Assembly: GCA_945859605.1 (NCBI GenBank)
Contig: OX243815.1
Location: 41,884,459 to 41,948,458, forward strand
Reading direction: 5' to 3'
Length of the DNA: 64,000 bases
From: Lumbricus rubellus
Taxonomy: Eukaryota > Annelida > Clitellata > Crassiclitellata > Lumbricidae
The notes under the pieces were generated by a model. It searched no databases. It was not told the DNA's origin and worked only from the letters and a program-made list of their open reading frames with translations. Positions within the stretch are counted from its first letter, which is position 1; every line of letters starts with the position of its first letter. A program made the position numbers and the translations under genes. Below, piece by piece: positions 332-57,033 of this stretch.

Positions 332-1280
332 GTAAGAAGTTCTGCTGATTGCAAACGAAAGTAATCATGAAATCGAGATTTATGCAGCGCCGATAGAGGA
401 AAGAGTCAAGGACTAGATTGTTTCCAGGTGCTTTGTGAAAACGAACTCGAGAGACCTTATAAATGTCAAAATCGGTTCCAATTGGTCTAGCTGTCCGACA
501 GACAAACACTCGGTCAGTTAATTGATGACTGTCAAATGCGTTTAGCCTAACTAGCCTACTTTCGAAAAAATTAATTTTTTAGGTTAGAGACCAGCTTGAA
601 GGGTTCGCAGAGAAGGGTATCAGCACCAGCTTCCTTAAATTTTACCATTGCCAAATGTAACAAGAGAACTCTGCTATGCTGGCTGGTAATGAATAATTAT
701 TAGAGTTTGTAGGTTAGTGTCATCAATCGTTGCATTTGATCGGAATTCTCGCTTGCCTGGTTTTCGGAAATCAGCAATAACAATATGGCTTGAGTCAGCT
801 GTCGGTGCGATAATTATTATTATTATTAGGCCTTTTATAATTCTGATCAACACCATTTGCTTGCGTGTGTTTTAACTTGGACCTGGCAATACGTATGAAA
901 AGAATTATTGAAGTAGAATAATCCTTTGTTTTATAAAAAGGGCTTTAGACCTTTGTCGGCTGACTCATTGACCTGCACTAGCGTTAAGTTTATAACAATA
1001 ATTATTCTTGTTGAATTTTGTTGTAAATGTATGTTGCTGTTATGTGAATGTTGATGTGACATGCAAGTCAATAAACAATAAAAAATATCAAAGTCACTGA
1101 TGTAGTAAAATTATTTCCATACACGTAGAATAATGAAGTTATAGGCTAACTGTGGACAAGATTGCATGGCTTTTTTAGCGTGCAGTTGTAGGCTACACAA
1201 AATTTGAAGCAAGAATGGGTTTTGCAGTTCTAAAAATTCCTTAAAAACCGAACTGCAAGGTTGAATGATGTCGTGTTTAG

Positions 1281-3300: not shown

Positions 3301-3698
3301 TCAGTTTCAGATTCGCTTAGTTGGATATTAAGTCAGAGTTTCAGCTGGTTGTCTTCACGAACAATTGGGCATTTTTGTCAATGCGTCGATCAGTGAGTCA
3401 TTTGCGAGTGAATGATTGATTAGGGTGTTGGCGTGTGTCTTAATTGGGTTTAAGGTGGGTGCATGCATGGTTGGACAACTAGAGTGTGATATATCGAGTC
3501 AGTCGGTCAGCCGGACAGCCGGACGCCTGACTGCAGAGTGTCAAAATTAAAATGCGACCCTATCAAATTTGGTATCACCAGTTACTGCTGTATTTGGTAT
3601 TCGTGCTGCGTATTTGAGATTTCGAAGTGACGAAGAACATTAAATGCATCAACTGGGCCAATGCTTTTATTTATTATTGCATTCTTGTTATTGTTTAG

Positions 3699-4511: not shown

Positions 4512-4763
4512 TTGCAGAACGAATGGATAAAAGAATGCGCAAAACGTAGGCCTAGGTCCTATTACTACCATCAATTCAAACAACAAGGCAAGATGAAACA
4601 GGCTGACAGCATATTAAAACAAGAGGGGAAACGTAGCCTATGGAAGAAATTGAACAAAATGTGTGAACATCATCAAATTGCAAATGGACTAAATGCATTA
4701 ATGGGCTACCAGCAATTCGAATATTTATTAAACATTTTCATAATTAGGCCTAATCAGGAATAA
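4512..4763 (+). other. Conserved open segment, unknown
   Basis: An 83-codon open frame, Lys/Arg/Tyr-rich at the start (AKRRPRSYYYHQFKQQG) and later SLWKKLNKMCEHHQ. The gene B duplicate (34982-35215) keeps it open almost unchanged. No convincing splice signals or start context were found. It could be an optional exon, an exonised repeat or chance. Confidence 0.3.
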
Positions 4764-5238
4764 TTATTACTATCAACAGACGGAAAACAGTCAAAGCAAT
4801 ACTTATTACAAAATGCAGGAGCAGCTGACTTGCTGAAATTGTAATCTCCAAATTTCAAAAGCGCCTCTCGAAAGCCAAGCGAAAATATAATTAGGCTATT
4901 GGATAGGTTACTTAGGCCTACTGGTTATTCGCGGCGCTGAAATAATTTCTAGCTGTGATCTTCTGTCAAATGATTCTATTACTGGGTCAAAATTAATTGA
5001 ATGGTTGATTGATTGATTGCTTGATTGATCCCTTGCTTGCTTGATTGATTGACGCTTTACTCCAGAAGACCTCCCAGATGACATTCGAGCTGCCCCATCA
5101 AGTTACTTTTTCTAACCGTGTTAAAACCTAACAGTTCAGATTTCCCCATGTGCAACCATGTTCGGAGAGCTTTAGCAAACTCCATGTTATTATATGCTTA
5201 GGCCTACATTAATTATGGTACAATGTTTTGTCTTTTAG

Positions 5239-15715: not shown

Positions 15716-15952
15716 GAAAGGACAAGGCGAAAAGTATCATCAAATGGATCAGGAGGATCGCCAAAGCGATCATCAACGCACGAAATAGACCGCCTCCTAG
15801 GCATAGGTCTAGGCCTATATCTATTTATAGGCCTAGGCCTATATATAGGCCTAGACCTATTTATAGGCCTAGGCCTATATATGGGCCTAGATTTGGGCCA
15901 CGATCAATTGAAGGGGAACAAACTGAAATCGACCGCAACCAAATAACTGCAG
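15716..15952 (+). CDS. Gene B exon 6: cationic cassette with Arg-Pro-Ile-Tyr repeats
   Basis: Phase 1-1 exon of 237 nt, the longest cassette. It starts GKDKAKSIIKWIRRIAKAII, then a Pro/Arg region with RPISIY and three tandem RPRPIY hexapeptides, GPRFGP, and the family tail RSIEGEQTEIDRNQITA. The hexapeptides come from an 18-bp unit made of TAGGCCTA motifs (15796-15895). The product resembles proline-rich antimicrobial peptides in composition; bioactivity is inference. Confidence 0.75.
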
Positions 15953-24771: not shown

Positions 24772-25417
24772 GTAAGAAGTTTTGTTGAGTAGGGTACCTT
24801 AGGAAGACAGAATCCATGGAATTAGGAAAGATTCAGATAAACACTAGCCTAGTTGATGACTGTCAAATGCGTTAAGTTACTTTCGAAATAATTAATTTTT
24901 AGGTTATAGACCTGCTTGAAGGGTTCGCAGAGAATAGTTGGCTAATTCAGTAGCCTACCAGCTTCCTTAAATTCTACCATTGCCAAATGTAGGCTAACAA
25001 GAGAACCCTGCTATGCTGGCTGGTAATGAATTAGTGTTTGTGCGCTAAGTCGTCGGTCGAGAATTATAAGGGTCTATGTCCACTTTTTGAAATTTTTCAC
25101 TTTTTGGTACCATGACGTAGATCTTGTTCAGGGCTATAACGTCCTGTGAGAATCTAAGCTTCATCTTCAATATTAAAAGAGATATTTGCAATATTAAAAG
25201 GATCTATGTCCCATGTTTTCATCTATTTGCGAATTATAAGGCTCTATGTCCAATAGCAAATACGAACGCTGCATTCAAGTCACGTGACGAGGCTCTATGT
25301 CCCATGTCTTCATCTTTTTGAGAATTATACGGCTCTATGTCCAATAGCAAATACGAACGCTGCATTCAAGTCACGTGACGTGAGTCTTTTGGGCTCTAAC
25401 AGTACGCAACAAAAATA

Positions 25418-25497
25418 ATGGCGGATAGTTTGCATCGCATATCGCGGAAGAAATTAACTAGCAGTCAATTGCTGGGTCTATTACAGGATGATGAAGA
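25418..25497 (+). CDS. Transposase exon 1
   Basis: The ATG opens MADSLHRISRKKLTSSQLLG, then LLQDDE. The donor gtaaga is at 25498; it joins in phase 2 to the acceptor gttttag at 26081-26087, after which the frame continues into exon 2 (WDYSSDEDNYDSQLEV). The join is inferred from frame and splice consensus. Confidence 0.5.
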
Positions 25498-26087
25498 GTA
25501 AGATAACAATTTTGTGTGTAACTGTTAATTTGAGATAATGTCTACTGTGCTTAATATGTTTCTGATATGTTTCTGATATTGCCTAATAATATTGGTGCCT
25601 TACATACAAGACGACTGCAAAGCAAGGTTTGACTAAAGACAGTGTGAGCTGGGTCCTGACCTGCAGTAGCAGTTAACTGGACAATAATAATTATTACTGC
25701 CGATACCTATTTTATAAATTAATCCCCGTAAAAGGCAGGGCATTTCTTTCAAGTTTCTTGAAGTTTGTAATGATCCATCATCATACACGATATTATGATC
25801 ACATAATAAAAATTATGATAGTAAAGTTACATGTGCGCATGGCTTACACAGTAATGCAATGCGGAAATTTAATTTAAAAAATGAAATAAGTCAGCCAGCA
25901 GATATATTATCCAGCTATAAGCAATCAAAAGTTATTAACCTTAATAATACTGGTCTCCAAGTAATATTGATGAAATATGGCTGGCAATGAAATTATAATT
26001 GAGAATAATGACGGCCATCTGAGCTATTTACCCTTCCGATCTATTACAATTTAAATAACTGAATCTACTCCTAGTTCATTGTTTTAG

Positions 26088-28067
26088 GTGGGATTACAGC
26101 AGTGATGAAGACAATTATGACAGCCAGTTGGAAGTGACTGATGGATATCCGATTTCACTTACACTTGCACCAATGATTAATGCAGGTCCTACTACAGATC
26201 CAATGCAGTGTGACACATGTGGTAAATTCAATGGGTGCTCGTGTGCATCTGGAACTTTTGTGGAAGTAGCTCCATTGTCGTCTGTTAATCTTGAACCTGC
26301 CAATTATGACAGCCAGTTGGAAGTGACTGATGGATATCCGATTTCACTTACACTTGCACCAATGATTAATGCAGGTCCTACTACAGATCCAATGCAGTGT
26401 GACACATGTGGCAAATTCAATGGGTGCTCGTGTGCATCTGGAACTTTTGTGGAAGTACCTCCATTGTCGTCTGTTAATCTTGAACCTGCCAATTATGACA
26501 GCCAGTTGGAAGTGACTGATGGATATCCGATTTCACTTACACTTGCACCAATGATTAATGCAGGTCCTACTACAGATCCAATGCAGTGTGACACATGTGG
26601 TAAATTCAATGGGTGCTCGTGTGCATCTGGAACTTTTGTGGAAGTACCTCCATTGTCGTCTGTTAATCTTGAACCTGCCAATTATGACAGCCAGTTGGAA
26701 GTGACTGATGGATATCCGATTTCACTTACACTTGCACCAATGATTAATGCAGGTCCTACTACAGATCCAATGCAGTGTGACACATGTGGTAAATTCAATG
26801 GGTGCTCGTGTGCATCTGGAACTTTTGTGGAAGTACCTCCATTGTCGTCTGTTAATCTTGAACCTGCCAATTATGACAGCCAGTTGGAAGTGACTGATGG
26901 ATATCCGATTTCACTTACACTTGCACCAATGATTAATGCAGGTCCTACTACAGATCCAATGCTGTGTGACACATGTGGTCAATTTAATTGGTGCTCGTGT
27001 GCTGAAAACCATGAGCATGAAACCACCAGACATCATGCCCGAACAGGACAACCTCTGACACGGAAACGCAAAAAGAACCAATCGGATTGGATTCAGGAAA
27101 AAAGGAAAAGGCTTCGTCAAAGTGGTAAAAGCTACATAACATCTCAAGGGAAACTGGCACCATCAAAGGCAATTATAAGAGACTGCAAAAGGGATCATAC
27201 AAGTTGTCGTTTTAAATGTTCGGTTAATATTGAAGATGAAGAAAGAGAGTTGATTAGCCAGGCTCATTGGGCTATGTCCGATATTGAAAAACGGTTCTTT
27301 TACACCAAGACATCAGCTGTCATTTGCAAAGCAAGAACTCGAAGAACAGACAATATGCATGAAAACAGGAAAAAAAGAGTTACAAGTACTTCTTTAACAG
27401 TGTTAATGGCACAATACGACGTGTCTGCAAAGATTTTTATCTGAATACACTGAACATCAACAGTAAACGAATTGTTAATACACACCAAGCAAAAAGTGAT
27501 GCAACTGGAACACCTTTGCCATACCGTCGGGGTAAACATGTAAAAAAAGACTGCCGTGCAGACAAAGCTATGATTAGAGAACACATTGAATCTCTTCCTA
27601 AAGTTGAGAGTCACTACTGTAGGAAGGAAACGAATAAGCAATACTTGTCAAGTAACCTGAACTTGCAAATTCTGTACGAAAAGTATCAAGAATACTGTCT
27701 GGGAAAAGAGGTTATTCCAGGGAAAATAAGCTTGTATCGAGACATCTTCAACCATGAATTTAACATAGAATTTCAGAAATTAAAAAAAGATAGATGCGAC
27801 ATTTGTGAAGCTGTACGTTTCAACAATAAAACCGAAGAAAGATACGCCACCCACCTAGAAAGTAAAGCTGAAACTCACAATGAAAGGCAGCAGGATAGGT
27901 CGACTGAAAGGCAGTGTGTAGTGTGCTTCGATATGCAAAATGTATTTGCATTACCACAGGCAAATGTATCCAGTTTTTTCTACAAGCGTAAGTTGAATGT
28001 ATACCATTTGACTGCACAGTGTTCTATTGATAAGCAGGGTTATGGTGTGCTGTGGCCAGAAAGCTAA
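26088..28067 (+). pseudogene. Transposase, N-terminal repeats and catalytic D1, broken
   Basis: The frame starts at the acceptor and contains four full 63-residue repeats plus a partial fifth (26115-27000), each with CDTCGKFNGCSC. A basic region follows (RKRKKNQSDWIQEKRKRLR) with a Cys-containing RDHTSCRFKC motif. Near 27369 a run of A residues marks a frameshift: the family-like sequence resumes in another frame. The following frame carries KKDRCDICEAV and CFDMQNVFALPQANVSSFFY, where D is the likely first catalytic residue. A TAA at 28065-28067 interrupts it. Not active as read. Confidence 0.6.
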
Positions 28068-29597
28068 AGTGGTCGTACTGGCAATGATATTGCAAGTGCT
28101 CTTGTGAGAATTTTAGAGCGACTTACTGAGGACCATTCTGATATCACTGAAATGACTCTGTGGAGTGATTCGTGCGTGCCACAGAATAAAAACAAAGTGA
28201 TGTCCACTGCCATTGCACTGTTCCTTCGAAACCATCCATCTCTGACATCTATAACCCAAAAGTTCTGTGAACCTGGTCACAGTGAAGTGCAAGAAGTGGA
28301 CAACCTCCACAGTCAGTTAGAGAAGGTGATGAAAGTCAGTGAAGTCTATAGCCCAGTCGGATTAGTCAGAGTGTTGAGCAGGACGCCAAGGAATAAACCA
28401 TTGAAACTCATGCAGCTGAAACTGGAGGACATCAAAGATTATCACAAGGAGGCTAACAGGTTTAAATATGACATCATTCCTTACACCAAAGTGAAAACTC
28501 TCAGATACTCATCACAAAGTCCCATGTCTGTAGAATACAAGCTTCGATTCTCAGATGAGTTATGGGTACAAGAACAATTGAAACTAAACATATCAGGTAG
28601 AAGTCGAGAATCGGATGGTCATTCCGTATGCCATATTTTCACTATGCCTCAGCGTGCGTCAAAAACAGAAGTTTTGACATCAGAAAAAATCAAGGATATA
28701 CAATCCATGCTAGATTTTATGCCTCAACCTGATAGACTCTATATGGAAATAATTTGTCAGAAGACACGCAATGCCGAAGGAGACAGGCTCCCAGTAGAGG
28801 CAAAATCTGATGACACTCAAACAGTAAGTAGACTAAGTAAGAAAAGAAAACATTCCACAGAAGCAACAATTATTGTTGAAAACCTGAAAATTGGCAGAAA
28901 AGGAAGGCATCCGGTATCATCAAAAGAAAAGCAGGGAAACACAAGCACGAGTGCAAATGAAACACTGTCAGTCAAACCAAAAGACCTGAAAGTAATTATT
29001 GGCAGAAAAGGAAGGCATCCGGTATCATCAAAAGAAAAGCAGGGAAACACAAGCACGAGTGGAAATGAAACACTGTCAGTCAAACCAAAAGACCTGAAAG
29101 TAATTATTGGCAGAAAAGGAAGGCATCAGGTATCATCAAAAGAAAAGCAGGGAAACACAAGCACGAGTGCAAATGAAACACTGTCAGTCAAACCAAAAGA
29201 CCTGAAAGTAATTATTGGCAGAAAAGGAAGGCATCCGGTATCATCAAAAGAAAAGCAGGGAAACACAAGCACGAGTGCAAATGAAACACTGTCAGTCAAA
29301 CCAAAAGACCTGAAAGTAATTATTGGCAGAAAAGGAAGGCATCCGGTATCATCAAAAGAAAAGCAGGGAAACACAAGCACGAGTGCAAATGAAACACTGT
29401 CAGTCAAACCAAAAGACCTGAAAGTAATTATTGGCAGAAAAGGAAGGCATCCGGTATCATCAAAAGAAAAGCAGGGAAACACAAGCACGAGTGGAAATGA
29501 AACACTGTCAGTCAAACCAAAAGACCTGAAAGTAATTATTGGCAGAAAAGGAAGGCATCCGGTATCACCAAAGGGGAAAAAAATAAAAATTAAATAA
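28068..29597 (+). pseudogene. Transposase, C-terminal catalytic part and 36-residue repeats
   Basis: Open from after the TAA to 29597. LWSDSCVPQNKNKVM holds the likely second catalytic Asp, and EPGHSEVQEVDNLHSQ likely the third acidic residue. From 28890 there are six tandem 108-bp repeats (unit IGRKGRHPVSSKEKQG, then NTSTSANETLSVKPKDLKVI) and a partial seventh. The tail is Lys-rich, perhaps DNA binding. Catalytic assignments come from position and family memory. Confidence 0.55.
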
Positions 29598-31332
29598 GGA
29601 ATAAGAATGAGAAAAAAGCAGTAACAGTAACAGTGGCTACAGTGAAAGAACAAAAGTACTGTTACTGACATAATAATTTATGGTCAATGCTTCAAACCAT
29701 TATTTGGATTAATGTTACTAAGAGTTTCTGTTATAAACACCACAGTAAATTAATCATAAAAAAATTGGACCAATATCACACTATTGCAAATTAACAGTGT
29801 TGCTTTTAAAAACAAAGAGAATTATTATAGATCATTTGGACATGTCTGATATTAAAAAAAAAGTTTAACCGCTGCAATTTACTGGTGCGAATTATAAAGA
29901 CTGGACTACACTAAGACTTTGTGGCAACAACGACAAAACAGTAACAGTCACTGTGGCTACAGTGCGAAAGAACAACGTTGAAATAACAATAATTTATTGT
30001 CAATGCTCCAAACCAATAATATTTTGAATGTAATGCTATAATATTTGCTGCTATTATAAGCATCACAATAATAATAATATTATTATTAATGCATTAACCA
30101 CATAAAAAGTCTATATCAATGAAGCTTTATAAGAAATGAACAATGCTGCATCAATTTTCACGACATTCAGAATTTTGGCTGTCTATCCAAAAGAAAGTTG
30201 CAGCTGAAAAAACCCCAAAATTAAGTCAATTACTTATATTTTTTTATCTGAATGTCTGCTAAATATGGGTTCACAAGATGCTTTTAGTCTCAAACACAAT
30301 GGATAAATCATATATTAATTCGTTTTCACCAGCTGAGTGGTACATAATTTTTAATTAATATGCTCCCTCAGCCCACGCATTGCGTACATTTGAGTGTTAG
30401 AAGGCTCTATGTCCATGCTTTCGGCGTCGGGCGTTATTTGAAAAAAATCAGAAAAAAATACTTTCACGTTTTATTCACAATTTTTGGCGATGTACAATGT
30501 TACTTCATTGACAAATGAACAAAAAGACCCCAGTTACATTGTAATATTTGCATAATTGTGCGTGTACTTGAATGCTGAACTCACAAATCGGAATAATTAT
30601 GTTCAGCCCTCGCATTCTGTAAACATTGAGTATTATAAGGCTCTATGTCCATTTTTTGGCGTGGGGTATTCTTTAAAAAATTTAATTAAAATATTTTAAC
30701 GTTTTATTCACTAATTTTTTTAATGTACACTGTTACTTTATTGACAAATGAACAAAAGACCCCAGTTACATTTGTAATATTTTCATTCTTGTTTGTGTGC
30801 CTGATTGTTGAACTTTCAAATTGGAATATCTCGGAATAGTACTTTTTGGACATAGACCCTTATAATTCTCGACCGACGAAGTGCCACCAATCGTTGCATT
30901 TGATCGGAATTCTCGCCTGCCTGGTTTTCGGAAATTAGCAATTATAGCCTGGCTTGAGTCAGCTGTCGGTGCGATAATAATTATTATTAGGCCTATTTTA
31001 ATTCTGATCAACACCATTTGCTTGCATGCGTGTTGCAACTTGGACCTGGCAATACGTATGAAAAGAATTAATGAAGTAGAAATACTTTCTTTTATAAAAG
31101 GGCTTTTAGACCTTTGTCGGCTGACTCATTGATCTGCACTAGCGTTAAGTTCATAACAATAATTATTCTTGTTGAATTTTGTTGTAAATGTATGTTGCTG
31201 TTACGTAAACGTTGATGTGATATGCAAGTCAATAAACAATTTTAAAAATATAAAAGTTACTGGCGTATACACGTAGAATAATGAAGTCATAACTGTGGAC
31301 AAGGTTGAATAAATGAATAATGTCGTGTTTAG

Positions 31333-31954: not shown

Positions 31955-32541
31955 GTCAGTAATCAATGGCCATTCGCGATCTTCACATAACTAATACAAA
32001 GAACTTCTCGAAACATAGTGCACTGTGCACTTCCTTTCCAGTGATAATCTTAAATGCTTCAATTAGATCTTCTCTGCTTCTCCGTCTCTTCAGTGTTGTT
32101 AGACCCCACCTCTTCAGGCTTTCTTCGTGGTTCCAATCTCTCTCACCTTCAGTCGTCATTCAAACTTGATCCAACATCTCAGTAATTATTGCTTGATTTT
32201 GCATTCTAAACACTCTTATTTCACTCTATTCTAATCCTATAGATTAGAACTGACATGATATAATTAATCTGATCTGCATAAATAACAACAGGCCGAATAG
32301 GGCCTAATGATAGTGATGATTAAGATGATGACGACGACGACAATAATAACAAGACATTAATAATATTATTCAAGTCCTGGGATCCTGTAAAAATCCAGGC
32401 ATAAAAACAATGAGTCAATGACTGATTAAAGAGAGGTAGCAGATAAAGGTTTGCGTAAGAAGGAACAGATTTAAATCTATGCAAAACGTTGATGAAGGCC
32501 AACCGAAATAGGGCAATCAGAATCTTCCATAGGCCTATATA

Positions 32542-33546
32542 CACCGTGAGGCATAAAAAAGGAAACCCCTAGAAAAATCGTTATCATTTTAACAATATTC
32601 AATCAATGTCAATGAAATTCAGGAAAGTTATAGCTAAATAGTAAGCAATGTAAATAGGCCTACATTTACAATTTTTACTCTAACTGTCCGCCTTCAGCTT
32701 CTACGCATGCGCGAAGTCGCTTGCGCCATTCGTGCACCACCCAGCAATAATTCGCCGGTCAAGATCGTTCAAAGCCTGCATTATTCGCTTGCTAAGATCT
32801 TCAACATCACAGACCTTTGCTTTGTACACCATTTCCTGCTTTTCGTAGCAATAAGCTTAGACTACTCAAAATGATCGTCTGTATGTAGCAGTTGGAACTC
32901 GAAAGAGAGAAATTGCAGCCGACCGCCTTTTAAGCACACGTCCGACGTTTAGCTAATCCCTTATGGTGTCAGTCGGTGTTTCTTCTCTGGGGCGCACGTC
33001 AATTCATTTTGTTGAACCGGGGTAAAAATCAACGGCCAATACTACCGAGATGTTTTACTCATGGAAGGCCTTCTACCTGAAATTCGAGAACTCACTGAAT
33101 TTTACATTCTACAGCAAGATGGTGCTCCAACGCACAGAGATCGAGAAACGATTGCACTTCTGACGCATGAAACTACTGACTTCATAATTCCTACTCTTTG
33201 ACCCCCTAACAGCCCAGGTCTTAATCCCGTCGATTATAAAATATGGGATTCATGCAGGAAATGGTGTACAGAACAAAGGTCCGTGATGTTGAAGATCTTC
33301 GGAAGCGAATCATGCAAGCTTGGAACGATCTTGACCAGCGAATTATTGACTCGGCGGTGCGTGAATGGTGCAAGCGACTTCGCGCATGCGTAGAAGCTAA
33401 AGGCGGACAGTTAGAGTAAAAACTGTAAATGTATTTACATTGCTTGCTACTTAGCTATAACTTTCCTGAATTTCATTGACATTGTTTGAAAATTGTTAAA
33501 ATGATAACGATTTTTCTAGGGGTTTCCTTTTTTATGCCTCACGGTG
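32542..33546 (+). mobile_element. Palindromic Tc1/mariner element
   Basis: Ends CACCGTGAGGCATAAAAAAG are inverted and flanked by TA. The outer 300 bp or so on each side are inverted copies of one another: the left arm repeats, in reverse, the sequence encoding the transposase C-terminus in the right arm. The middle encodes a mariner-type fragment on the plus strand (FYILQQDGAPTHRDRE, NSPGLNPVDYKIW) with an in-frame TGA at 33199. No N-terminal DNA-binding part remains, so it is non-autonomous. Confidence 0.8.
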
Positions 33547-33651
33547 TATATATTCGTTTAATAGAAAAACCAAGTGACACACCGCACATGGGTACATGAA
33601 GAGATATAGAAAATTTGAAAGTATTTGACCACTGCCATTCTCTTGTCCTTC

Positions 33652-34090: not shown

Positions 34091-34607
34091 TCAGTTTCAG
34101 ATTCGCTTAGTTGGATATTAAGTCAGAGTTTCAGCTGGTTGTCTTCACGAACAATTTGACATTTTTGTCAATGCGTCGATCAGTCAGTCATTTGCGAGTG
34201 AATGATTGATCAGGGTGTTGACGTGTGTCTTAATTGGGTTTAGGGTGGGTGCATGGTTGGACAACTAGGGTGTGATAGGCTATATCGAGTCAGTCGGTTG
34301 GATGATGGAAGATGGATATGGAAAACTCAAAGAAAATGCACAACATCGAGAAGAGTGGCGTCGTTGGGCATCTGGACCTGCCGAGAGGCAGCTTACCTAA
34401 AGAAGAAGAAGGTAAGCCGGACAGCCGGACGCCTGACTGCAGGCTGCCAAAATTAAAATGCGACCCTATCAAATTTGCTATCACCTGTTACTGCTGTATT
34501 TGGTATTCGTGCTGCACATTTGAGATTTCGAAGTGACGAAGAACATTAAATGCATCAACTGGGCAAATTTTATATATATTATTATTGCATTCTTGTTATT
34601 GCTTTAG

Positions 34608-36122: not shown

Positions 36123-36749
36123 AAATAATAGTTTATTAAGTTTTAGCACAATCTTGAGGCTCTTATGACTAATGCACTTGACGTTGATATTGATTAAATT
36201 AGACTGCAGTGTACGCCTGATAAGGTCATTGATATCGAACAGAAAATGCTAATAAAACTTGTCTTGCATGGGTTAATTAGAGTAGGCCTAGGCTATACGT
36301 CATATCTTGATTGCATTGATCGCTGCAAACGTTAAAAGCTCTTCTCTCTGGCCCTCTCACCTTCTGTCTTCATCTGTCTGTCTAACTTCTCTCACCCTCT
36401 TTCGCCTTTCTCTTTCTTTCGCTCTAAACTCTATAAGTAATATTAGCGGAGAACGAAAGATTAACGGTTGCGTAGAATAGGGCTACTGATTCTGAAGACA
36501 ATTATAAATACGTTATGCATCCCAGGGCAGGGCGGATCTAGGGGCCAATCCGGCTCCCCTCATTCCAAAATGTGCATAGGACGTGACCCCCACTAGGTTT
36601 CAACAAACTTTCAACCAAAGAGAGGAGAGGATTTAGGGTAAAGAAAAGCGGTATAGGGTGAGAAGAAGGGAGAGGTAAGGGGTGACGGAAGAGCTTCAGT
36701 CGATCATATAATTTATGTGATGCGTCGTCAGGTTATAATTATCTCTTGA

Positions 36750-41002: not shown

Positions 41003-41512
41003 TGTGATAACCTCCTTGTGATCACCTCCTCCTATCAGTCTCTTCGGAAGCTTCTTCATATAAGTTCGTGGTAGCATAGGCCTATCCCTAGATAACTGTG
41101 TCATTAGCTAAATGGCTAGGTAAAGAATCTACAGACTTTCACTGTTTTGTAACCAACAACGACGACGTGTTTAAGTCTTCTTATTATACTCCAAAATCCG
41201 ATGTAAAGTAAAACGATCAGCAACAACACAACAATGACTACACTTGCGTTATCATAACAACTACACGACTACTACCTTCATCAGTCTACTCTATCGCAAC
41301 TCAACAACAACTATTACAGCCTATCTCAATAGCTCTCAACACACAACACTCCTTCTTCACTTCCACTCCCTCCTTGTACACTCAACGTACGCTCGTCTAG
41401 ACATCACGCGCTGTCCAGACAATCACCTGTCCAGACGCCGCGCGCCAATTTGCAGTTGGCCTACCTGCGTCGCTGTACGACAATCGTCGTGCACTGATTA
41501 AATTAGCTTACA
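41003..41512 (-). repeat. 3' LTR (minus-strand element)
   Basis: 510 bp, TGTGATAACC...TTACA. Left flank AGCAT at 40998-41002. Confidence 0.9.
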
Positions 41513-41629
41513 TTACCTCCTTCCTTTCTTTTGAAGAGAGCTAATTAATCTTAAAAATTAGCGAACGTATAATGCTTAAACTAAATACAAACAATTCCTA
41601 TACTAAATGCAATCACAAAATATCTTATA

Positions 41630-42187
41630 CTACAATCTCGATAAGCAGTCCGCTACTACATTCAGCTTTCCCTTCTTATAGTTCAACAGAATGTCAAAAT
41701 TTTGCAATGATAAAGACCATCGGACTAACTTAGCAGACTTCGACATTGACTCAGTCAAATAAATTAAAGGATTATGGTCAGTGAACACATTAATCTTGGA
41801 ACCAATAATAATTTCTTTCAATTTGTTTAAAGCCCATATGATTGCATAGGCTTACTTCTCAATCGTCGCCCATCTCCTCTGGGTATCTGTCAGCTTCTGA
41901 CTGATAAATGAAACGGGACGTTCTATCCCCTCATCGTCCACTTGTGACAGCACAGCCCCCACAGCAAAATCACTGCTATCACAGTACAAATTAAATGGTT
42001 TGCCAACCTCGAACATGTATAAAATCACATTTGATAAAACAATTTCTTTAAGAGAATCAAAAGACTTCTGGTGGTCCTCAGTCCAAACAATGTTCTCAGG
42101 TGTCTGCTTGCTAGTTAAATCTGTTAATGGTTTAGCAATTTCAGCAAAATTACAAATAAATTGTCTGTAGAAACCAAAAAATGTCAA
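41630..42187 (-). pseudogene. RT C-terminus and RNase H of the LTR element
   Basis: The minus strand begins at the RT thumb (GFYRQFICNFAEIAKPLTDL), then RNase H: YCDSSDFAVGAVLSQ and, after a stop at about 41852, VFTDHNPLIYL and NVVADCLSRL. The RT fingers and palm, with the catalytic Y-x-DD box, are absent between 42192 and 42187. Not functional. Confidence 0.75.
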
Positions 42188-42191
42188 TCAA

Positions 42192-42640
42192 TTAGTTAGC
42201 AAGTGTTAGGATTTTTGGGTTCAGCACCACTTCCTGTTCTACCATTGTACATAATCCAGGTTTGTCCGAAAATCTGTCTGCATAACGGTTCAGTACATCC
42301 AGTAGCTGTTTCTGTTGCTCGCACGTAAGATGTCCGATCTGTTCATAGTCCAATTGCAGCGATTTCTGTGTCGTCTCTGCATGGTCTTCTTTCAATGGTA
42401 GCTCTACCACTGATCCGAATTCGTCGTCCTCTTCCACGATGAGACCACACGATAATGTTCTTGCGATGAACTTCCTCATTTTGTTGGCATGGACGATTCG
42501 TCGGCCGTTTTCATTCATGTCCACCAGATACGAATACTTGGATCTTCTTTGTAGCACTGTACATGGACCATGCCATCGTGAGATCAATTTATTGGTTGAC
42601 GTGGATACAGGACGATGACGTTTTCTCCTGGTTCGAATTC
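42192..42640 (-). pseudogene. Integrase C-terminus and RT leader of the LTR element
   Basis: SRWHGPCTVLQRRSKYSYLV is a GPY/F-like integrase C-terminal module. It continues in the same frame into the spacer and to the start of the RT region. It is out of frame with the upstream ORF: two frameshifts lie between about 42600 and 42665. Confidence 0.65.
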
Positions 42641-42641
42641 T

Positions 42642-45600
42642 TTATCCTTGGCCCTCTTGTTGTATTGACTGGCGTATTGCACAATTCTCAGCAAATATCA
42701 AAGCTTTCTCCATGTCTGCTCTTAAGTTCTTCAGGTACTTTGCTGGTTGTACTCCAATGTTTGGCGGTAGATTTATTTCTTTGGTCCAGCTTTCCTTTAA
42801 GATAGTTAAAGGTCCTCTTGGCATTTTTCCATATACCAGCAGATATGGTGCCACTCCTGTCGTTGCGTTAGGAACTTCTCTCAATGCCCATACGGTAAAC
42901 GGAATGATTTTATGCCACTGTCTTGGATTTTCCACAATGACATGATGTACCATCTTCTTGAACGTCTGATTCCATCTCTCGACTAATCCGGCTGCCTCTG
43001 GATGCCCCGGTGAATCGAATCGTGGACAGCATCCCATCAATTTCAAAAATTCCCTTGTAAGACTGGTTGTAAAATTCGTGCCTCTGTCGCTGGTGATCAC
43101 AGACGGCACCCCCACGTCAATGAATAGCTTCATCAAAGCTTCGCACACAGCCTTAGCAGTCAATGACTTCAGCAAAAAGATTGTCGGCCATCTTGTACAT
43201 GAATCCACTATGCACAAGCAATACTTATGCCCAGCTGCTGACTTCGGTTCTATTGGGCCTACCACGTCCATAGTCATCCGTCGGAATGGAACATCTTCCC
43301 TTGGAATTGGTGTAATCGGCACTCGATCCATCACCAAACTTCGTGCCTTCAGCTGACACTTCTCACAGGACTTACAAAATTTCACCACGTCTCGACGCAT
43401 CTTTGGCCAGACAAAGAACAACTTGATTCTCTCTCGTGTCTTCTCTTCTCCCAAGTGTCCGCCAAATACTGACTCGTGAGCTAATTCCATTACTTGAATT
43501 CTTCTCTCTTTCGGTAACACCAACTGGTACACTAGCTGATCCAACATTTGATGCTTCTTATACATCAATCCATTCACCACGCTAAACTCTGATCCTTTGT
43601 CTTCAGCGATCCTCCACCACGATTTCAGTGACTCGTCATTTCTCTGCTGCTCCTCGAATTTCTTCGCATCTTCCAGCTGTCTTTCATCGTTCGAATTCTC
43701 TGTGAACAAGTCCCTCATACTTGTCTCCAGTTCAGCGTCGCTTCCGGAATCTTCACTATCATTTCGTTCACATGCAGCCATCTCTTCTTCAGTTTCATTG
43801 TTCTCATATGTTGTTCTTTCGTCATCTTGAATGCTGAGTTCATCTTCGCTGTCCGTGTCATCTTCTTGCGAACTTTCGTTTATCGTTTCATCTTCTCCGC
43901 CTTCGACTTCTGCTCTCCGACTTTGTGCTCTTGTAGTCACATTCGCTTGTAGTTCCCCTTGCAATACACTCACTGGTGGAATCTCTTTCAATTCTGCAAT
44001 TATCTCCGGATGTAGCAAGAACTTTTCTCTGTTTTCTTTGCACAGATCCGCTGGAATGCTGGCACACACTAAAGTTAAATATGGCGCGATATTTATTGTC
44101 CTGTCCTCTGTAGCTGCTCCTTCGTTACGACCGCTCATCCGCACTTCGATTTTTACCAACTTAGCTGGAATCGGCTCTCCAGCTACACATTGCAAATGAA
44201 CTCTGCCGATTTCTTCTACTGTCGTTCCTTTCAGTAGTTCCTCGTTGATTACCGGTATCTCGGTCCCCGAGTCAATCAACGCCTCGACTTGCACAGGCTG
44301 CCCATCAGTCCCACGTATCTCCACATTTACATGCTGCAACGATATCTTCTTTATGCGTTGACACTCCTCTTTACTTTTTGTTTCTCGACAAATTTCTGCA
44401 ATGGAAGTAGTCTTTATCGCTTCTTTCTGCATGGTGAACTGCGGCGTACACTTCATTACCGACTTCACTTCTGTTTCACGATCGTCCGATTCTTCAAACT
44501 GGTCTGGTGCATTCATCACTTGTATCTGGTTTACTCGAAGATTTTCTGCACTTCTGCTAAAGTTCTTCCTCAGATTTGCCGCTCCTGGTACTTGGCAATG
44601 TTTTATTAGGTGTTTGTCAGAATGACAGTTGTGGCAACGTTTCTTTATAAAACTTCTTTGCTCATTGTTCTCCCACTTGTTGTACGGCGTGTATGATGCA
44701 TTACTTTCTGTTGGGCGTCCCAGCGGCGGAGTTCGATTGTAGGCTTGTCTGTCCCACGTTGACTCTTTCTTATCTTGCCAATACTGCTTTCCAGAATAAT
44801 TATCTTTCTTTGCATCATTACTCTTGGCTTGGCTTCCGGTGTCTTTGCTATCCTTGTTCCACTTGAATGGCTTTGAGCTATTTCCCCATGCTTCAAATTT
44901 CGGTTTGTCTTGGAACATCACACCAATCCGATTGTTTACATGTATGTCTGCGAGGTCTGCAACATTACTAGCTTCCAAGCATTCTGTGCCCTCTTTTGCT
45001 AAGACAAACTGCAGTGGACCTGGTGGTAAACATTCTTTCAGCTTATCCGCCACTAACAAATCAAACAGCTTCTCGTAGTCTTTGTCCACTCGTCTACTTC
45101 GGACATAATAATTCAACAGGTTCTTCAGCCTAGCCGTGAACATCGTATACGTTTCTTCGGCTGTCTTCTTGGCATCTGCAAACCTTGACCTGTACTCACG
45201 AGCTGTTAACTTGAATTCCTTCAACAAATGCTCTTTCACTGCATCGTATTTATCTAAATTCTCAAATGACAATCGATTCAATACCGTTCGCGCTCTCGGG
45301 GTCATCAATGGCAACAACAATTTCACCCAGTACTGTTTTTCCACAGCGAAGCTATTGAATGCATTTTCAACTGTTTCAAAATATAATGGCACTTCCATCA
45401 TATCATACGGCATCTTCGGTAACACATGTTTCATTGCGTCACCTATCTTCTTAATCTTGGACACCATTGTCTCACTTTCTCTGAGCCTAATCTGTTCTGA
45501 CACTTCTCGGCTCTTACGATCATCTTCGTCTCTCTTCTTCAGTCGATCTTGATCTTCGATTCTCCGCAGTTCTTCTTGTTCAATCTTCTGCTGCAACAGT

Positions 45601-46430
45601 TCTAACTGCTTTCTGCGTTCTTCTTTTTCAATGGCCATTTCTTTAAGTTGAGCCTTCTTGATAGCAAGTTTCTTTTGTTCTAACTGCATCTGCTCTTCTC
45701 TTTCTCTTTCTGCTTTTTCCAAATTGTCTTTTCCGGCTTGAAATTCTTCCTGACGAATTTCTTCTGCTCTCTCCAGTTCTTGTAAACGCATCTTTTCTTT
45801 TTCTTCCTCGCGAGCCTTTTTGTCCTCAATCTGCTGCTTTCGTATTTCTTCATCGCTTTTTCTTGCTTTTTCGTACTCTATCATTAACTCCATTCTTCGT
45901 CGTTCTGCTTCGTCACGATCTATTTTCATTTGTTCTAACTGAAGCTGGAACTGCTGCTTCTGCATATCTATCTCTTGCTGTCTCATCCTTTCTGCTTTTT
46001 CTATCTCTTGTTGTCGCAATTCTTTCTCTTCCTGTCTGCGCTGCTCTTCTTTCTCTTTCTTTTCTTGTTTACGCTCTTTCTCCTCTTGTTTACGCTCTTT
46101 CTCCTCATGTCTGCGCTGCTCTTCTTTCTCCTTCTCTTCTTGGCGACGTTCTTTCTCTTCCTGTCTACTCATCATCATGAGTTGTAGCAACGCCTCTATA
46201 GACATAGGTGGCTGTGGCTTCTCCACTGGCTTCTCTTCAGTACCACCTACAGCACCTTCTTCTTCAGCGTCTTTTTTCGCCCAAACTTCCGCCAAAGTTC
46301 TCATCAAACTTTCCCTCGACATCTGTCCGACTTCTTCTGCATCTAAACCTGCTTCGATTAATAATTTTATTATTCTTTCGGAAGCCATCTTCTTAATAGC
46401 CGCTTGCTTTTGCTCTGTAAGTTTCTCCAT
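42642..46430 (-). CDS. Gag-protease-integrase polyprotein of the LTR element
   Basis: 1262 residues. About 60-340: long charged coiled coil (EEKERRQEEKEKEEQ type). About 340-560: capsid-like helical region. Near 625: zinc knuckle CHNCHSDKHLIKHC. Near 725: aspartic protease ALIDSGTEIPVI. Then an acidic linker. From about 960: integrase HHCC finger (HLGEEKTRERIKLF, CKSCEKC), the catalytic core with MDVVGP and SDRGTNF, and the following Glu. It ends early at a frameshift relative to the integrase C-terminus. Acts in reverse transcription particles and integration; here a genomic fossil within gene C intron 1. Confidence 0.8.
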   Translation of the reverse strand: MEKLTEQKQAAIKKMASERIIKLLIEAGLDAEEVGQMSRESLMRTLAEVWAKKDAEEEGAVGGTEEKPVEKPQPPMSIEALLQLMMMSRQEEKERRQEEKEKEEQRRHEEKERKQEEKERKQEKKEKEEQRRQEEKELRQQEIEKAERMRQQEIDMQKQQFQLQLEQMKIDRDEAERRRMELMIEYEKARKSDEEIRKQQIEDKKAREEEKEKMRLQELERAEEIRQEEFQAGKDNLEKAEREREEQMQLEQKKLAIKKAQLKEMAIEKEERRKQLELLQQKIEQEELRRIEDQDRLKKRDEDDRKSREVSEQIRLRESETMVSKIKKIGDAMKHVLPKMPYDMMEVPLYFETVENAFNSFAVEKQYWVKLLLPLMTPRARTVLNRLSFENLDKYDAVKEHLLKEFKLTAREYRSRFADAKKTAEETYTMFTARLKNLLNYYVRSRRVDKDYEKLFDLLVADKLKECLPPGPLQFVLAKEGTECLEASNVADLADIHVNNRIGVMFQDKPKFEAWGNSSKPFKWNKDSKDTGSQAKSNDAKKDNYSGKQYWQDKKESTWDRQAYNRTPPLGRPTESNASYTPYNKWENNEQRSFIKKRCHNCHSDKHLIKHCQVPGAANLRKNFSRSAENLRVNQIQVMNAPDQFEESDDRETEVKSVMKCTPQFTMQKEAIKTTSIAEICRETKSKEECQRIKKISLQHVNVEIRGTDGQPVQVEALIDSGTEIPVINEELLKGTTVEEIGRVHLQCVAGEPIPAKLVKIEVRMSGRNEGAATEDRTINIAPYLTLVCASIPADLCKENREKFLLHPEIIAELKEIPPVSVLQGELQANVTTRAQSRRAEVEGGEDETINESSQEDDTDSEDELSIQDDERTTYENNETEEEMAACERNDSEDSGSDAELETSMRDLFTENSNDERQLEDAKKFEEQQRNDESLKSWWRIAEDKGSEFSVVNGLMYKKHQMLDQLVYQLVLPKERRIQVMELAHESVFGGHLGEEKTRERIKLFFVWPKMRRDVVKFCKSCEKCQLKARSLVMDRVPITPIPREDVPFRRMTMDVVGPIEPKSAAGHKYCLCIVDSCTRWPTIFLLKSLTAKAVCEALMKLFIDVGVPSVITSDRGTNFTTSLTREFLKLMGCCPRFDSPGHPEAAGLVERWNQTFKKMVHHVIVENPRQWHKIIPFTVWALREVPNATTGVAPYLLVYGKMPRGPLTILKESWTKEINLPPNIGVQPAKYLKNLRADMEKALIFAENCAIRQSIQQEGQG

Positions 46431-46773
46431 CTTACTTCTTTACTTTACTGATGCTAGTCGATAAATAGTAGGCTACTCTTCAAATGTTTGCAATTGACTG
46501 ACTTCAATTCTTTAAGCAAACTTCAATAGACAAGCAAGTTTTTCTACCTTGTAGTCGTTGTGTTGTCGTTTCTCACTGTCGTACGGATGCTCGATGTATC
46601 GTTGCTTCTCCCGAGTGCTCGGCTCCTCGATAAATGCACAGCGTCCGTTCCTCCGCAACGTCTGTTGATTGGATAGAATCCCTCCGTTCGTAACTTGGCA
46701 CGTAGACCCGCCGTTCGTAACTAGGATCGTTCTCCTGCAACTTGGATCGTTATCTCACCGCAACGACACCAAA

Positions 46774-47283
46774 TGTGATAACCTCCTTGTGACCACCTCC
46801 TCCTATCAGTCTCTTCGGAAGCTTCTTCATATAAGTTCGTGGTAGCATAGGCCTATCCCTAGATAACTGTTTCATTAGCTAAATGGCTAGGTAAAGAATC
46901 TACAGACTTTCACTGTTTTGTAACCAACAACGACGACGTGTTTAAGTCTTCTTATTATACTCCAAAATCCGATGTAAAGTAAAACGATCAGCAACAACAC
47001 AACAATGACTACACTTGCGTTATCATAACAACTACACGACTACTACCTTCATCAGTCTACTCTATCGCAACTCAACAACAACTATTACAGCCTATCTCAA
47101 TAGCTCTCAACACACAACACTCCTTCTTCACTTCCACTCCCTCCTTGTACACTCAACGTACGCTCGTCTAGACATCACGCGCTGTCCAGACAATCACCTG
47201 TCCAGACGCCGCGCGCCAATTTGCAGTTGGCCTACCTGCGTCGCTGTACGACAATCGTCGTGAACTGATTAAATTAGCTTACA
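46774..47283 (-). repeat. 5' LTR (minus-strand element)
   Basis: 510 bp, near-identical to 41003-41512. Right flank AGCAT at 47284-47288. Confidence 0.9.
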
Positions 47284-48836: not shown

Positions 48837-49302
48837 ATATATTTTCATGAAAATCGTATTGCCGTCGCAGTAGGGCAAAGTTACAAAACGTCAGACATTT
48901 GGCTCACATACTGGCATGCATCATTGATTATCAGCAAACAATCATGTTCTCTTAAAATTTATCTTAACCACTGTGTCCTAGAGTGACCTTAGCTCCGCAT
49001 TAATTAATACTGCAGCATTCTTGCTAAGAAATTTAATAAATACCGAGAATACAGACCTTCGAAACTGCTGACCCCTCCAAACTGCGATTCAGGGTGCTGC
49101 AACACCCCTAGCACCTACCACAATGCGGGCCTGCCAGCACTGCACATAAAAATGAGGTTGCTAATGGATGTGAGCCGGTGCATAGCAAGACTAGACGTAT
49201 CAATATCAAGTTAAGCTTTTAGTTAGCAAATTATTTGTTAATTGTAAAGCAAGTGCAACTACCAGGTTAAAAAAATTGATTGCAACATCGCTATTCTCCT
49301 AG

Positions 49303-49449
49303 AATTTGGATTAACTGAAACTGAACTCGAAGAGCTGTACCGCCTCTGGGTTCCGAAGGTTCCTGTTGGCGAAGATGCTTTTTTCCAGGCATTCGTTAGT
49401 TGGATGAAAGAAAATGATGAAAACGTGGACGACGGGGCTCCTACAATTG
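49303..49449 (+). CDS. Gene C unit 1 acidic cassette
   Basis: 147 nt, phase 1-1. FGLTETELEELYRLWVPKVP, then VGEDAFFQAFVSWMKENDEN and VDDGAPTIG. More diverged than units 2-7 (AFFQ, SWMKEN). Confidence 0.75.
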
Positions 49450-49755
49450 GTATGTGATTTTAGTCTATATAAAAAAACCGCAAACGCATTCAAAGTCTCT
49501 AGACTTATAAAAGAAACTGTGCGTGTTTACAAAAGAACTTTCCACCCTGTGCGATTATAAAGAATGTAGGCCTACTTGTTACCAACATGTAACTCGATGC
49601 TTTCGTTACATTTTGGCGATAACTTACCAGCTAAAAAGATAAAAGGGTAAATAAAGTAGATAAATCTCTTGCGTAAGGTAGGCCAGGTCTAATAATTATG
49701 TCTCTAGATGAACGACACACTAACTTCAAACAGGGCATAATAATGTCGTGTTTAG

Positions 49756-49905
49756 GATCTCATTTTTGGAGAAGTGCCATCAAATGGACCTGGAGGATCG
49801 GCAGTTGGGTCGTGGGTAAAGTCAAGGACAATAATGACAACGAAAAACGTCAACAATCAATTGAAAGGGAACAAACTGAAATGAACCACAACCAAATAGC
49901 TGCAA
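49756..49905 (+). CDS. Gene C unit 1 cationic cassette
   Basis: 150 nt, phase 1-1. GSHFWRSAIKWTWRIGSWVV, then GKVKDNNDNEKRQQSIEREQ and TEMNHNQIAA. Four Trp in the first 18 residues. The family R-S-I-D motif is replaced by KRQQSIE. The donor is gtaagt. Confidence 0.75.
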
Positions 49906-50788
49906 GTAAGTTTGTTGCCTGGAACTATTATGTACCTCCTCAAAACAAGGGGCTGTCGTGTTGCGCGTGTTTACATGTACATCATACAAGTGAACAGAGC
50001 TTGCCTTCTCGAAATCAATCCCACATTTTATATTAAAACTTATTTTTAACGCTTTGTTATTTAAAATTGTTGTACAATTGGCGCCAGAGCAGAAAGGTAA
50101 GTTGCATATGGATGTGAAGTAGTGCAATGAGTGCATAGCATGACTAGTCGAATAAATATCCTATTTTTAAAGTTTTCAATTAAACAAACTATACATCCTA
50201 CCCTCCCGATCATTGACACACAGATCGCACACTTCTCGCTCCTTGCTCTTTTTTGTCCCAATATTGAAGTCATCCTCTTCGATGAGAGCCTGCATGGGTC
50301 TAATCGTTCATCATCATTACTTTCTCTATTTCGGCCTCCAAACTTCAGTCACATTCTCCCTGAAAACATGTAACCGTTCCTTAGTCTATGCTGCACCAGC
50401 TCTTGGAATGGACTCCGATCATCATTTTCTATTAACTATGTTGCAAGACGCTGTCTTCCGGGCTTGACCTATTTGAACTTTGACCCTTCACTCTGTCGGC
50501 CTCCACACATTCCAATCACCTCGTTTCATAAGCCATGGAGACTTTTTCCTTTGATACACCAGCTATTTGGGACGGACTCCTATCATCACCCATTAATACT
50601 GTCGCACCACGCTGTCTTCTTGGCTTGGTCTACCTGAACTTTGACCTATATGACAAATATGTCATTATCTATGTGGAATCCTTGAATGTGGAAATCTCAT
50701 AATAGGCCTATGTAGTTTGAAATTAAGATAGTTTCAAACTAGCGTTACTATGATGCTACATTGCACCGTAAATTTGTAATTTGGCCAG

Positions 50789-50935
50789 AATTTGGATTAA
50801 CTGAAACTGAACTCGAAGAGCTGTACCGCCTCTGGGTTCCGAAGGTTCCTGTTGGCGAGGATGCTTCTTTCCAGGCATTCGTTATTTGGATGGATGAAAA
50901 TGATGAAAACGTGGACGACGGGGCTCCTACAATTG
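50789..50935 (+). CDS. Gene C unit 2 acidic cassette
   Basis: 147 nt. FGLTETELEELYRLW, SFQAFVIWMDENDENVDDG. Donor gtatgt. Confidence 0.75.
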
Positions 50936-51222
50936 GTATGTGATTTTAGTTCTAGACGAAACAATGCAAATGTATTCGAAGTCTCAAGACTTATAATAGC
51001 AACTGTGCGTATTTACACGAGAACGTTAAACCCTGTGCCATTATAAAGTATGTATGTGTTACCTTCATGTAACTGGATGCTTTAGGTACATTTTTGCAAT
51101 ACGAGATAAAAGGGTAAATAAAGTAGAGAAATTTCGTGCGTAGAATTGTCCAGTTCTAACAATTATTTCTCTAGATGAACGAAACAATAACTTCAAACAG
51201 GGCATAATAATGTCGTGTTTAG

Positions 51223-51372
51223 GATCTCATTTTTGGAGAAGTGCCATTAAATGGACCTGGAGGATCGGCAGTTGGGTCGTGGGAAAAGTCAAGGACAATA
51301 ATGACAACGAAAAACGTCAACAATCAATTGAAAGGGAACAAACTGAAATGAACCACAACCAAATAGCTGCAA
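51223..51372 (+). CDS. Gene C unit 2 cationic cassette
   Basis: 150 nt; the peptide is the same as unit 1. Confidence 0.75.
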
Positions 51373-52473: not shown

Positions 52474-52620
52474 AATTTGGATTAACGGAAACTGAACTCG
52501 AAGAGCTGTACCGCCTGTGGGTTCCGAAGGTTCCTGTTGGCGAAGATGCTTCTTTCCAGGCATTCGTTATTTGGATGGATGAAAATGATGAAAACGTGGA
52601 CGACGGGGCTCCTACAATTG
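52474..52620 (+). CDS. Gene C unit 3 acidic cassette
   Basis: 147 nt; peptide as unit 2. The donor is gtatgg where units 1, 2, 5, 6 and 7 have gtatgt, which may weaken splicing. Confidence 0.7.
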
Positions 52621-53057: not shown

Positions 53058-54017
53058 GTAAGTTGACTGGAACTATTATGTACCTCCTCAAAACAGGGGG
53101 CTGTCGTGTTGCACGGTGTTTACATATACATCATACAGGTGAACAGAGCTTGCCTTCTCGAAATCAATCCAACATTTTATATTAAAACTTATTTTTATTG
53201 CTTGGTTATTTAAAATTGTTGTACTATTGCCGCCAGGTCAGAAAGGTAAGTTGCATATAGATGTGAAGTAGGCTAGTGCAATGAGTGCAAAGCATGACTA
53301 GTCGAATAAATATCCTATTTTTAAGTTTTCAATTAGACAAACTATACAATCCTACCCTCACGACTATTGACACAAAGATGGAAATTATCCCGCTCATTAC
53401 TCGTCTCCTGTCCGCAATCTTGGATTCATCTTCGATGAGAGCCTGGGTCTAGTCGTTCATTACCATTACTTTCTCTATTTCGGCCTCCAAACTTCAGTCA
53501 CATTCTCCCTGAAACCATGTACCGACCGACTAACCGTTCCTTAGTCTATGCTGCACCAGCTCTTGGAACGGACTCCGATCATCATCTAGTACCTCAGTTG
53601 CAACCTTGACCTACTTATAATTTGACATCGAATCAGAACGACCCGGGCACTTTTTTGGCCATTATTGACTTGAGTTGAAATAGGGACGGTGAATAAACTA
53701 TAGTCTCTCGATCTTACATCGATAGATCTACATATCCCTACTGCTATTAAGATAGCCCACTTGACCATTACACCACTCGCTGATTTACAAAGCTTTGATT
53801 GAATTATGATCATTGCGTCTACGGGCTAGCCTTCAACTTCTTTGTGGATGCGGTTCCATAATCTCAATGAAACGAATAATTATATCATTATCTATGTGAA
53901 ACCCTTGAATGTGTAAATCACATTATAGGCCTGTGTAGCCTAGTTAGAAATTTAAGATAGTTTCAAACTAACGCTACTATGATGCTACATTGCATCGCAA
54001 TTTTGTAATTTGGCCAG

Positions 54018-56145: not shown

Positions 56146-57033
56146 GTAAGTTTGTTGACTGGAACTATTATGTACCTCCTCAGAACAAGGGGCTGTCGTG
56201 TTGCGCGTGTTTACATGTACATCATACAAGTGAACAGAGCTTGCCTTCTCGAAATCAATCCCACATTTTATATTAAAACTTATTTTAAACGCTTGGTTAT
56301 TTAAAATTGTTGTACAAATGGCGCCAGAGCAGAAAAGTAAGTTGCATATGGATTTGAAGCAGTGCACAATGAGTGCATAGCATGACTAGTCGAATAAATA
56401 TCCTACCTCTTTAGTTTTCACTTAGACAAACTACACCCTACCCTCCTGATCATTGACATACAGATCGAACACTTCTCGCTCCTTGCTCTTTTTTGTCCCA
56501 ATATTGAAGTCATCCTCTTCGATGAGAGCCTGCATGGGTCTAATCGTTCATCATCATTACTTTCTCTATTCCGGCTTCCAAACTTCAGTCACATTCTCCG
56601 TGAAACCATGTAACCGTTCCTTAGTTTATGCTGCACCAGTTCTTGGAACGGACTCCGATCATCATTTCTATTAGGCCTAACTATGTTGCAAGACGCTGTC
56701 TTCCCGGCTTGACCTATTTGAACTTTGACCCTTCACTCTGTCGGCCTCCACACATTCCAATCACCTCGTTTCATAAGCCATGGAGACTTTTTCCTTTGAT
56801 ACACCAGCTATTTGGGACGGACTCCTATCATCACCCATTAATACTGTCGCACCACGCTGTCTTCTTGGCTTGATATACCTGAACTTTGACCTATATGACA
56901 AATATGTCATTATCTATGTGGAATCCTTGAATGTGGAAATCTCATAATAGGCCTATGTAGTTTGAAATTAAGATAGTTTCAAACTAGCGTTACTATGATG
57001 CTACATTGCATCGCAATTTTGTAATTTGGCCAG

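Follow-up and report, generated by a model that had tools for sequence, protein, structure and literature searches.

Within the window, i.e., the whole stretch of 64 kb of Lumbricus rubellus DNA that was analyzed, the three short words TAGGCTA, TAGCCTA, and TAGGCCTA behave as micro-insertions targeted to TA. This had been proposed in the original prediction for this DNA and is borne out by the enrichment of the words and by the comparison of filled and empty TA sites in paralogues. The motifs are probably the excision footprints of a transposon of the Tc1/mariner type, which would have carried the ends GGC...GCC and left a 3-nt 3′ overhang. We infer the transposase, the element ends and the annealing steps from the words at TA, the paralogous sites, the flanks, the product spectrum and the shortage of motifs in young DNA.

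Enrichment of the Motifs at TA

For TAGGCCTA, 55 copies are present in the window, whereas an order-1 Markov model predicts 0.48. TAGGCTA and TAGCCTA occur 39 and 24 times, respectively, with 2.48 copies expected of each in the same model, which amounts together to 63 vs. 5.0. The scar density is one per ~540 bp, and the excess of GGCC, GGC, and GCC at TA, a check proposed in the original prediction, is strong in the window. When 8-mers are ranked by excess, TAGGCCTA takes the third place in the company of simple-repeat words. In the top-8 lists of words of the form TA-N(k)-TA, with k ranging from 1 to 10, the outliers are GGCC (k = 4) and GGC/GCC (k = 3). Further listed words include GACC/GGTC (8 vs. 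1.4 expected) and ACGC/GCGT (8 vs. 1.2 expected), others being A/T-rich or simple repeats, and longer words with 4–9 copies may have their origin in a duplicated array. No excess is seen for 2-nt words between TAs, since GG is present 12 times (9.95 expected) and CC twice (10.9 expected), together 14 vs. 20.8.

Removal of 11 motif copies in duplicated DNA, as judged from the alignments, leaves 107 copies (48 of TAGGCCTA, 37 of TAGGCTA, and 22 of TAGCCTA), a set that still includes six copies at 15810–15877 with partly the look of a 36-bp tandem repeat. The motifs cluster slightly, with 55 neighbors at most 200 bp apart vs. 40.8 expected, to which the local repeat contributes.

A further word, TACATGTA, carries CATG between the TAs and is found 11 times in the window, with 1.0 expected:

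8199, 14013, 15379, 15527, 16311, 21696, 37764, 44937, 49972, 56212, and 62933: copies of TACATGTA

At 8199, 15527, and 21696 it directly adjoins a GGC or GGCC scar. This word may represent a preferred target or the scar of a different Tc1-like family.

Filled and Empty Sites in Paralogues

A self-alignment of the window resulted in 202 one-way alignments (80 columns or longer); 136 were kept after the removal of 66 as low-complexity. Eight pairs of filled and empty TA sites had been named in the original prediction, and all eight (16 coordinates) read as described there. The sites outside the tandem array are the following:

24990..24996, unstranded: TAGGCTA, filled; the paralogue is an empty TA at 658–659
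34276..34282, unstranded: TAGGCTA, filled; empty TA at 3490–3491
1142..1148, unstranded: TAGGCTA, filled; empty TA at 31290–31291
543..558, unstranded: two copies of TAGCCTA (543–549 and 552–558), both absent in the paralogue 24874–24879; the first is ambiguous in the alignment
32655..32662, unstranded: TAGGCCTA in one arm of an inverted repeat; the other arm is empty at 33432–33433
15810..15877, unstranded: six copies of TAGGCCTA, including two nested TAGGCCTAGGCCTA; the 36 bp spacing marks them as partly a local tandem repeat
36283..36295, unstranded: nested TAGGCCTAGGCTA, which resembles an insertion into a TA created by an earlier insertion
4740..4759, unstranded: 20-nt insertion with TAGGCCTA, consisting of the 7-bp repeat ATAATTA and a 13-nt filler; the paralogue near 35207 is without it

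The site at 552–558 lies within a 10-nt difference, which is best read as two adjacent insertions (543 and 552). In the pair at 53936–53942, the motif reads TAGCCTA and has substitutions adjacent to it. At 4740–4766, ATAATTA flanks GGCCTAATCAGGA on both sides, resembling a scar with filler, and the 4740–4759 insertion is a possible product of imperfect repair. The inverted repeat with one filled arm is an element of ~1 kb (32536–33552) with ~300-bp arms that are 91% alike, and it adjoins a further TAGGCCTA at 32530.

The catalogue of indels, drawn from alignments of at least 75% identity with good flanks, has 95 distinct entries. Counting TA insertions between paralogues, which had been put forward as a check, revealed a motif in 10 of the 15 indels of 5–6 nt, nine of them with a direct reading as TA duplication; after hand-merging of the duplicated array copies, the motif is present in 8 of 13. 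Some motif sites are common to both paralogues (1498/31560, 4547/35014, 4634/35101, 4892/35339, and 4913/35360), which suggests that the insertion process has some age. The ambiguous sites 5199, 5604, 5781/36283, 24951, and 30988 were left uncounted.

Direction of Change

The region 49301–59509 is a seven-copy tandem array with units of ~1.5–1.7 kb and short repeated open frames, and two of the units are identical across 1544 bp. Here, four sites differ between the copies:

56672..56679, unstranded: TAGGCCTA in one array copy; the five other aligned copies are empty, as is the diverged copy at 62775
49567..49574, unstranded: TAGGCCTA in one array copy; the other six are without it; substitutions in the flanks
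53269..53275 (also 54813), unstranded: TAGGCTA in the two identical array copies; three copies have an empty TA, a fourth is without insert and has TA changed to CA
53936..53942 (also 55480), unstranded: TAGCCTA in the two identical array copies; empty TA in four others

The site at 56672 is polarized as an insertion by the diverged outside copy at 62775, and it is the sole site polarized in this way. At 49567, 53269 (= 54813), and 53936 (= 55480), each filled in one lineage of an unrooted array, insertion is favored by the majority alone. A site with the reverse pattern is absent from the array alignment; gene conversion among the copies is conceivable. Since 55 copies of TAGGCCTA are present where 0.5 are expected, gain is needed.

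Accumulation in Older DNA

Two insertions of recent origin are of use here:

25050..30879, unstranded: DNA transposon of 5.8 kb with perfect inverted repeats of 33 bp; lacking in the paralogue (between 694 and 716)
41513..46773, unstranded: stretch between the LTRs (99.4% identical) of a young Gypsy-type element; one motif (46469)

These elements and a LINE stretch were chosen from a gap list after their motif poverty had been seen, which makes the following P-values flattering: the 5.8 kb transposon has no motif at 394 TA sites (12.0 expected, P = 6 × 10−6), the stretch between the LTRs one at 250 TA (7.3 expected, P = 0.006), the full Gypsy-type span 41003–47283 three (9.7 expected, P = 0.013), and the LINE stretch none at 91 TA (2.6 expected, P = 0.08). 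The motifs at 41077 and 46848 are one copy common to both LTRs. Coding constraint could also depress the motif counts in these elements.

Long open frames whose proteins contain internal repeats are present in the 5.8 kb transposon; in one frame, KH_KhpA-B scores above the cut-off, with no single stretch passing alone, and DUF7869 below it. The Gypsy-type element has its LTRs at 41003–41512 and 46774–47283 and encodes integrase domains on the minus strand, in a frame of 1265 aa. Besides this element and the LINE, a chitin-binding domain is present in the window, a set that suggests an animal genome.

The remainder of the window, excluding these elements and the array, has 2615 TA sites, of which ~4% are filled (100 motifs). 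Seven paralogue blocks outside the array have 216 TA in common at a divergence of 6.5% (273/4185) and contain four clear lineage-specific insertions (552, 1142, 24990, and 34276) as well as a likely one (543). This gives an insertion rate of ~0.3–0.35 of the substitution rate per TA, which becomes higher if the ambiguous sites are counted; overall, the rate is roughly 0.3–0.5 of the substitution rate.

One-mismatch neighbors of TAGGCCTA number only 28 vs. 14 expected, which suggests little decay among the copies. In a coarse simulation with three runs per grid point, which already starts with 28 neighbors and is therefore informative by their increase only, the best agreement with the intact counts is reached, in rough terms, near onset 0.07 with rate 0.5 and near onset 0.10 with rate 0.35. 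An onset of 0.25 with rate 0.2 matches the intact counts as well but adds 26 neighbors, compared to an excess of ~14.

Proposed Mechanism and Product Spectrum

The mechanism envisaged starts with a cut-and-paste element of the Tc1/mariner type with the ends 5′-GGC...GCC-3′, which would insert at TA and thereby duplicate it. For excision, the transposase would cut one strand three bases inside the element, leaving both flanks with the 3-nt 3′ overhang TA-GGC, and end joining would anneal both overhangs. A full 3-nt overlap with one G·G mismatch would result in TAGGCTA or TAGCCTA, whereas the perfect 2-nt overlap GC/GC would yield TAGGCCTA. A 1-nt overlap would give TAGGCCCTA or TAGGGCCTA, and joining with no overlap would place GGCGCC between the TAs.

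These six predicted words account for 122 of the 133 G/C-only words of the form TA-N(3-6)-TA in the window. Ordered by overlap, the counts are 63 for GGC/GCC (3 nt), 55 for GGCC (2 nt), 4 for GGGCC/GGCCC (1 nt), two of which (2327 and 32298) are one paralogous pair in duplicated DNA, and 0 for GGCGCC (none). The other 11 are GGG (4), GGGC (2), CGGGC (2), CGG, CCG, and CCGG (1 each). A single end structure, GGC with a 3-nt overhang, would thus account for all of the product lengths (3 and 4 nt, rarely 5 nt) and for the absent excess of 2-nt words. The mismatch model needs GGC and GCC in like numbers, and these are not significantly unequal (39:24, p = 0.077; 37:22, p = 0.067 with duplicates removed).

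The flanks display a preference that is non-random and symmetric around TA. RTAY sites are filled in 4.8% of cases and YTAR sites in 0.9% (Fisher p = 1 × 10−5, RTAY vs. rest). G at −1 has a frequency of 0.32 vs. 0.18 (p = 4 × 10−9, both sides of all 118 motifs) and A at −3 of 0.43 vs. 0.32.

Excision footprints are favored by the overlap-ordered counts 63, 55, 4, and 0, by the symmetric flank preference, which is expected of a transposase, and by the motif shortage in recently inserted DNA. Features of a Tc1/mariner footprint are found in the paralogue pairs, where insertion took place at TA with the TA duplicated (the flanks of 49567 being changed), and in the symmetric target preference. The inserts of 3 and 4 nt between the TAs are inside the 2–4 nt range of such footprints and would have to equal the ends of the putative element. 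We infer that the Tc1/mariner-type footprint suggested in the original prediction remains the best mechanism, whereas the GG...CC ends given there are recast as GGC...GCC, as no 2-nt excess is present.

Some points speak against excision footprints. Known excision products are more mixed and the words here very uniform, and a word count is blind to mixed products. The stretch bounded by the LTRs of the Gypsy-type element, which is young, contains a motif (46469). GGC and GCC are unevenly split, albeit within chance, the 5-nt class comprises 4 copies, and an outside copy polarizes one site only.

Search for a Source Element

The search for a TA-flanked transposon with matching termini, which the original prediction had called for, was negative within the 64 kb window, where the scans for TA-flanked inverted repeats revealed no element with GGC ends. 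A relaxed scan yielded 15 pairs starting with TAGG (12–13/16 matches), which were rejected as both ends begin with a motif copy that supplies much of the match. In a stricter list of 38 pairs, the TAGG-start pair 15713/17285 (15/20, no GGC) was taken as chance and four TAGG-start pairs within 15804–15877 as the local repeat. Among four open frames scanned in the window, none matched a Tc1/mariner transposase family. The blank in 64 kb is weak evidence, since cut-and-paste transposition conserves the copy number and millions of scars could stem from only a few thousand elements.

The protein of the LINE has no relative in the viral_contigs or genome_contigs; in a protein search with 7980 candidates scored, the best relative shares 89% identity among the best 120 of 7696 (E up to 0.001). 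Other DNA with clustered TAGGCCTA comprised 11 stretches from viral_contigs and 27 from genome_contigs, picked by this clustering and considered over the fetched stretch only. No sign of the same process was seen in these 38 stretches, which are no test of whole genomes. In most of them, TAGGCCTA forms one or two tight groups resembling tandem repeats, and the 3-nt forms are present 0–3 times per locus, mostly 0–1.

Comparison With Known Systems

The footprints of Sleeping Beauty are TACAGTA and TACTGTA. For Sleeping Beauty and mariner, 3-nt 3′ overhangs have been described, and the Sleeping Beauty footprints correspond to these overhangs (PMC7827188). Integration of mariner/Tc1/IS630 elements is reported to be strictly at TA (PMC5481204). 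Tc1/mariner footprints are given as 2–4 bp, and excision of the zebrafish element ZB leaves zero to three bp (PMC7913693), whereas the excision products described in rice are mostly deletions and filler (PMC4423477). As in Sleeping Beauty and mariner, TA is duplicated, the 3-nt insert would equal the 3′ overhang of the putative element ends and two mismatch-resolved forms are expected. In contrast, the word is GGC/GCC, the palindrome GGCC is about equally common, as the self-annealing overhang GGC allows, and the scar density exceeds that described for these elements in the available text of the sources.

The Stowaway MITEs of grasses are similar in that short fragments of element ends between TAs were inferred from filled and empty homologous sites (PMC1925063). 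Unlike the narrow product set at more than 100 places in 64 kb found here, the Stowaway footprints described are five distinct putative scars at one intron across the wheat tribe (PMC1925063). ISL2EU of the PHIS superfamily also has a 2-bp target duplication, which is AT within the target A|AT|T (PMC4482050); it was rejected because TA is duplicated here rather than AT and the flanking bases differ.

Footprints of Tc1/mariner and Stowaway are already well known (PMC7913693, PMC1925063, PMC4423477). Among the open-access matches listed (titles and abstract starts), no report describes a genome filled with one scar set or TAGGCCTA as a motif. As a free-standing word, TAGGCCTA was found in none of the open-access papers searched, within longer words no title among the matches listed is motif-related, and on an overrepresentation of GGCCTA nothing on point is among the matches listed. 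A paper on the rainbow trout RAG 3′ UTR (a text of 13,368 characters) contains all three words, with counts of 1, 2, and 1, which is a lead only, hinting at the same scars in fish. Such words presumably occur in fish sequences as well, and the transposon lineage or the process may be spread across distant aquatic animals. PIF/Harbinger elements duplicate the 3-bp target TWA and were rejected, since the paralogue pairs duplicate TA only.

Alternative Explanations

A separate micro-insertion process, e.g., by a domesticated transposase or by a TA-specific nuclease combined with biased repair, could act at sites that never harbored an element. We regard this as rather unlikely. The missing donor element in the window, the very narrow product set and the high insertion rate per TA would all agree with it, but the TA duplication, the symmetric flanks and the overlap-ordered series are what is expected of transposase cutting, and no process that places such a fixed G/C word at TA is known to us. 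It is improbable that the scars derive from a Tc1-like element that ends in GG...CC and leaves an overhang of 2 nt, with 3-nt forms arising by the loss of one base. GGCC would then consist of two bases from each end, a form shared by the Tc1 footprint TACATGTA. However, a 2-nt overhang makes GG and CC likely products, and these fall below expectation (14 vs. 20.8); the 3-nt products are as common as the 4-nt ones, and the 5-nt products GGGCC and GGCCC would need an addition.

An ancestral filled state, from which TA arose by deletion between two TA repeats, is very unlikely, although deletions between short direct repeats are common in general and three of the four sites in the unrooted array can be read both ways. 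The diverged outside copy shows 56672 to be an insertion and the majority of copies favors insertion at the remaining three sites, recently inserted elements are motif-poor, and a word expected 0.5 times has to be gained to reach such numbers. It is hardly credible that the words are binding sites under selection, spreading by point mutation. A palindrome at high copy number does resemble the site of a factor, but paralogues differ by whole blocks of 5 or 6 nt, and the one-mismatch neighbors of TAGGCCTA (28 vs. 14 expected) are set against 55 intact copies.

Implications

It is possible, if doubtful, that one TA-inserting lineage, long active at a modest rate per copy, made its scars a leading class of mutation in the host. 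Provided that the window is typical, the density would amount to ~1.8 million scars per Gb. Should excision footprints be the correct explanation, the scars of one transposon would make up two thirds (10/15) of the 5–6 nt indels between paralogues in this window, and excision alone would reshape the word content and the indel spectrum of a genome. This would also imply caution for motif finders, as TAGGCCTA need not mean a binding site. The scars would allow the element's termini to be predicted exactly. They would also document earlier jumps, even of lost elements, in a form that can be read and dated, and would make the rate of germline transposition measurable from sequence.
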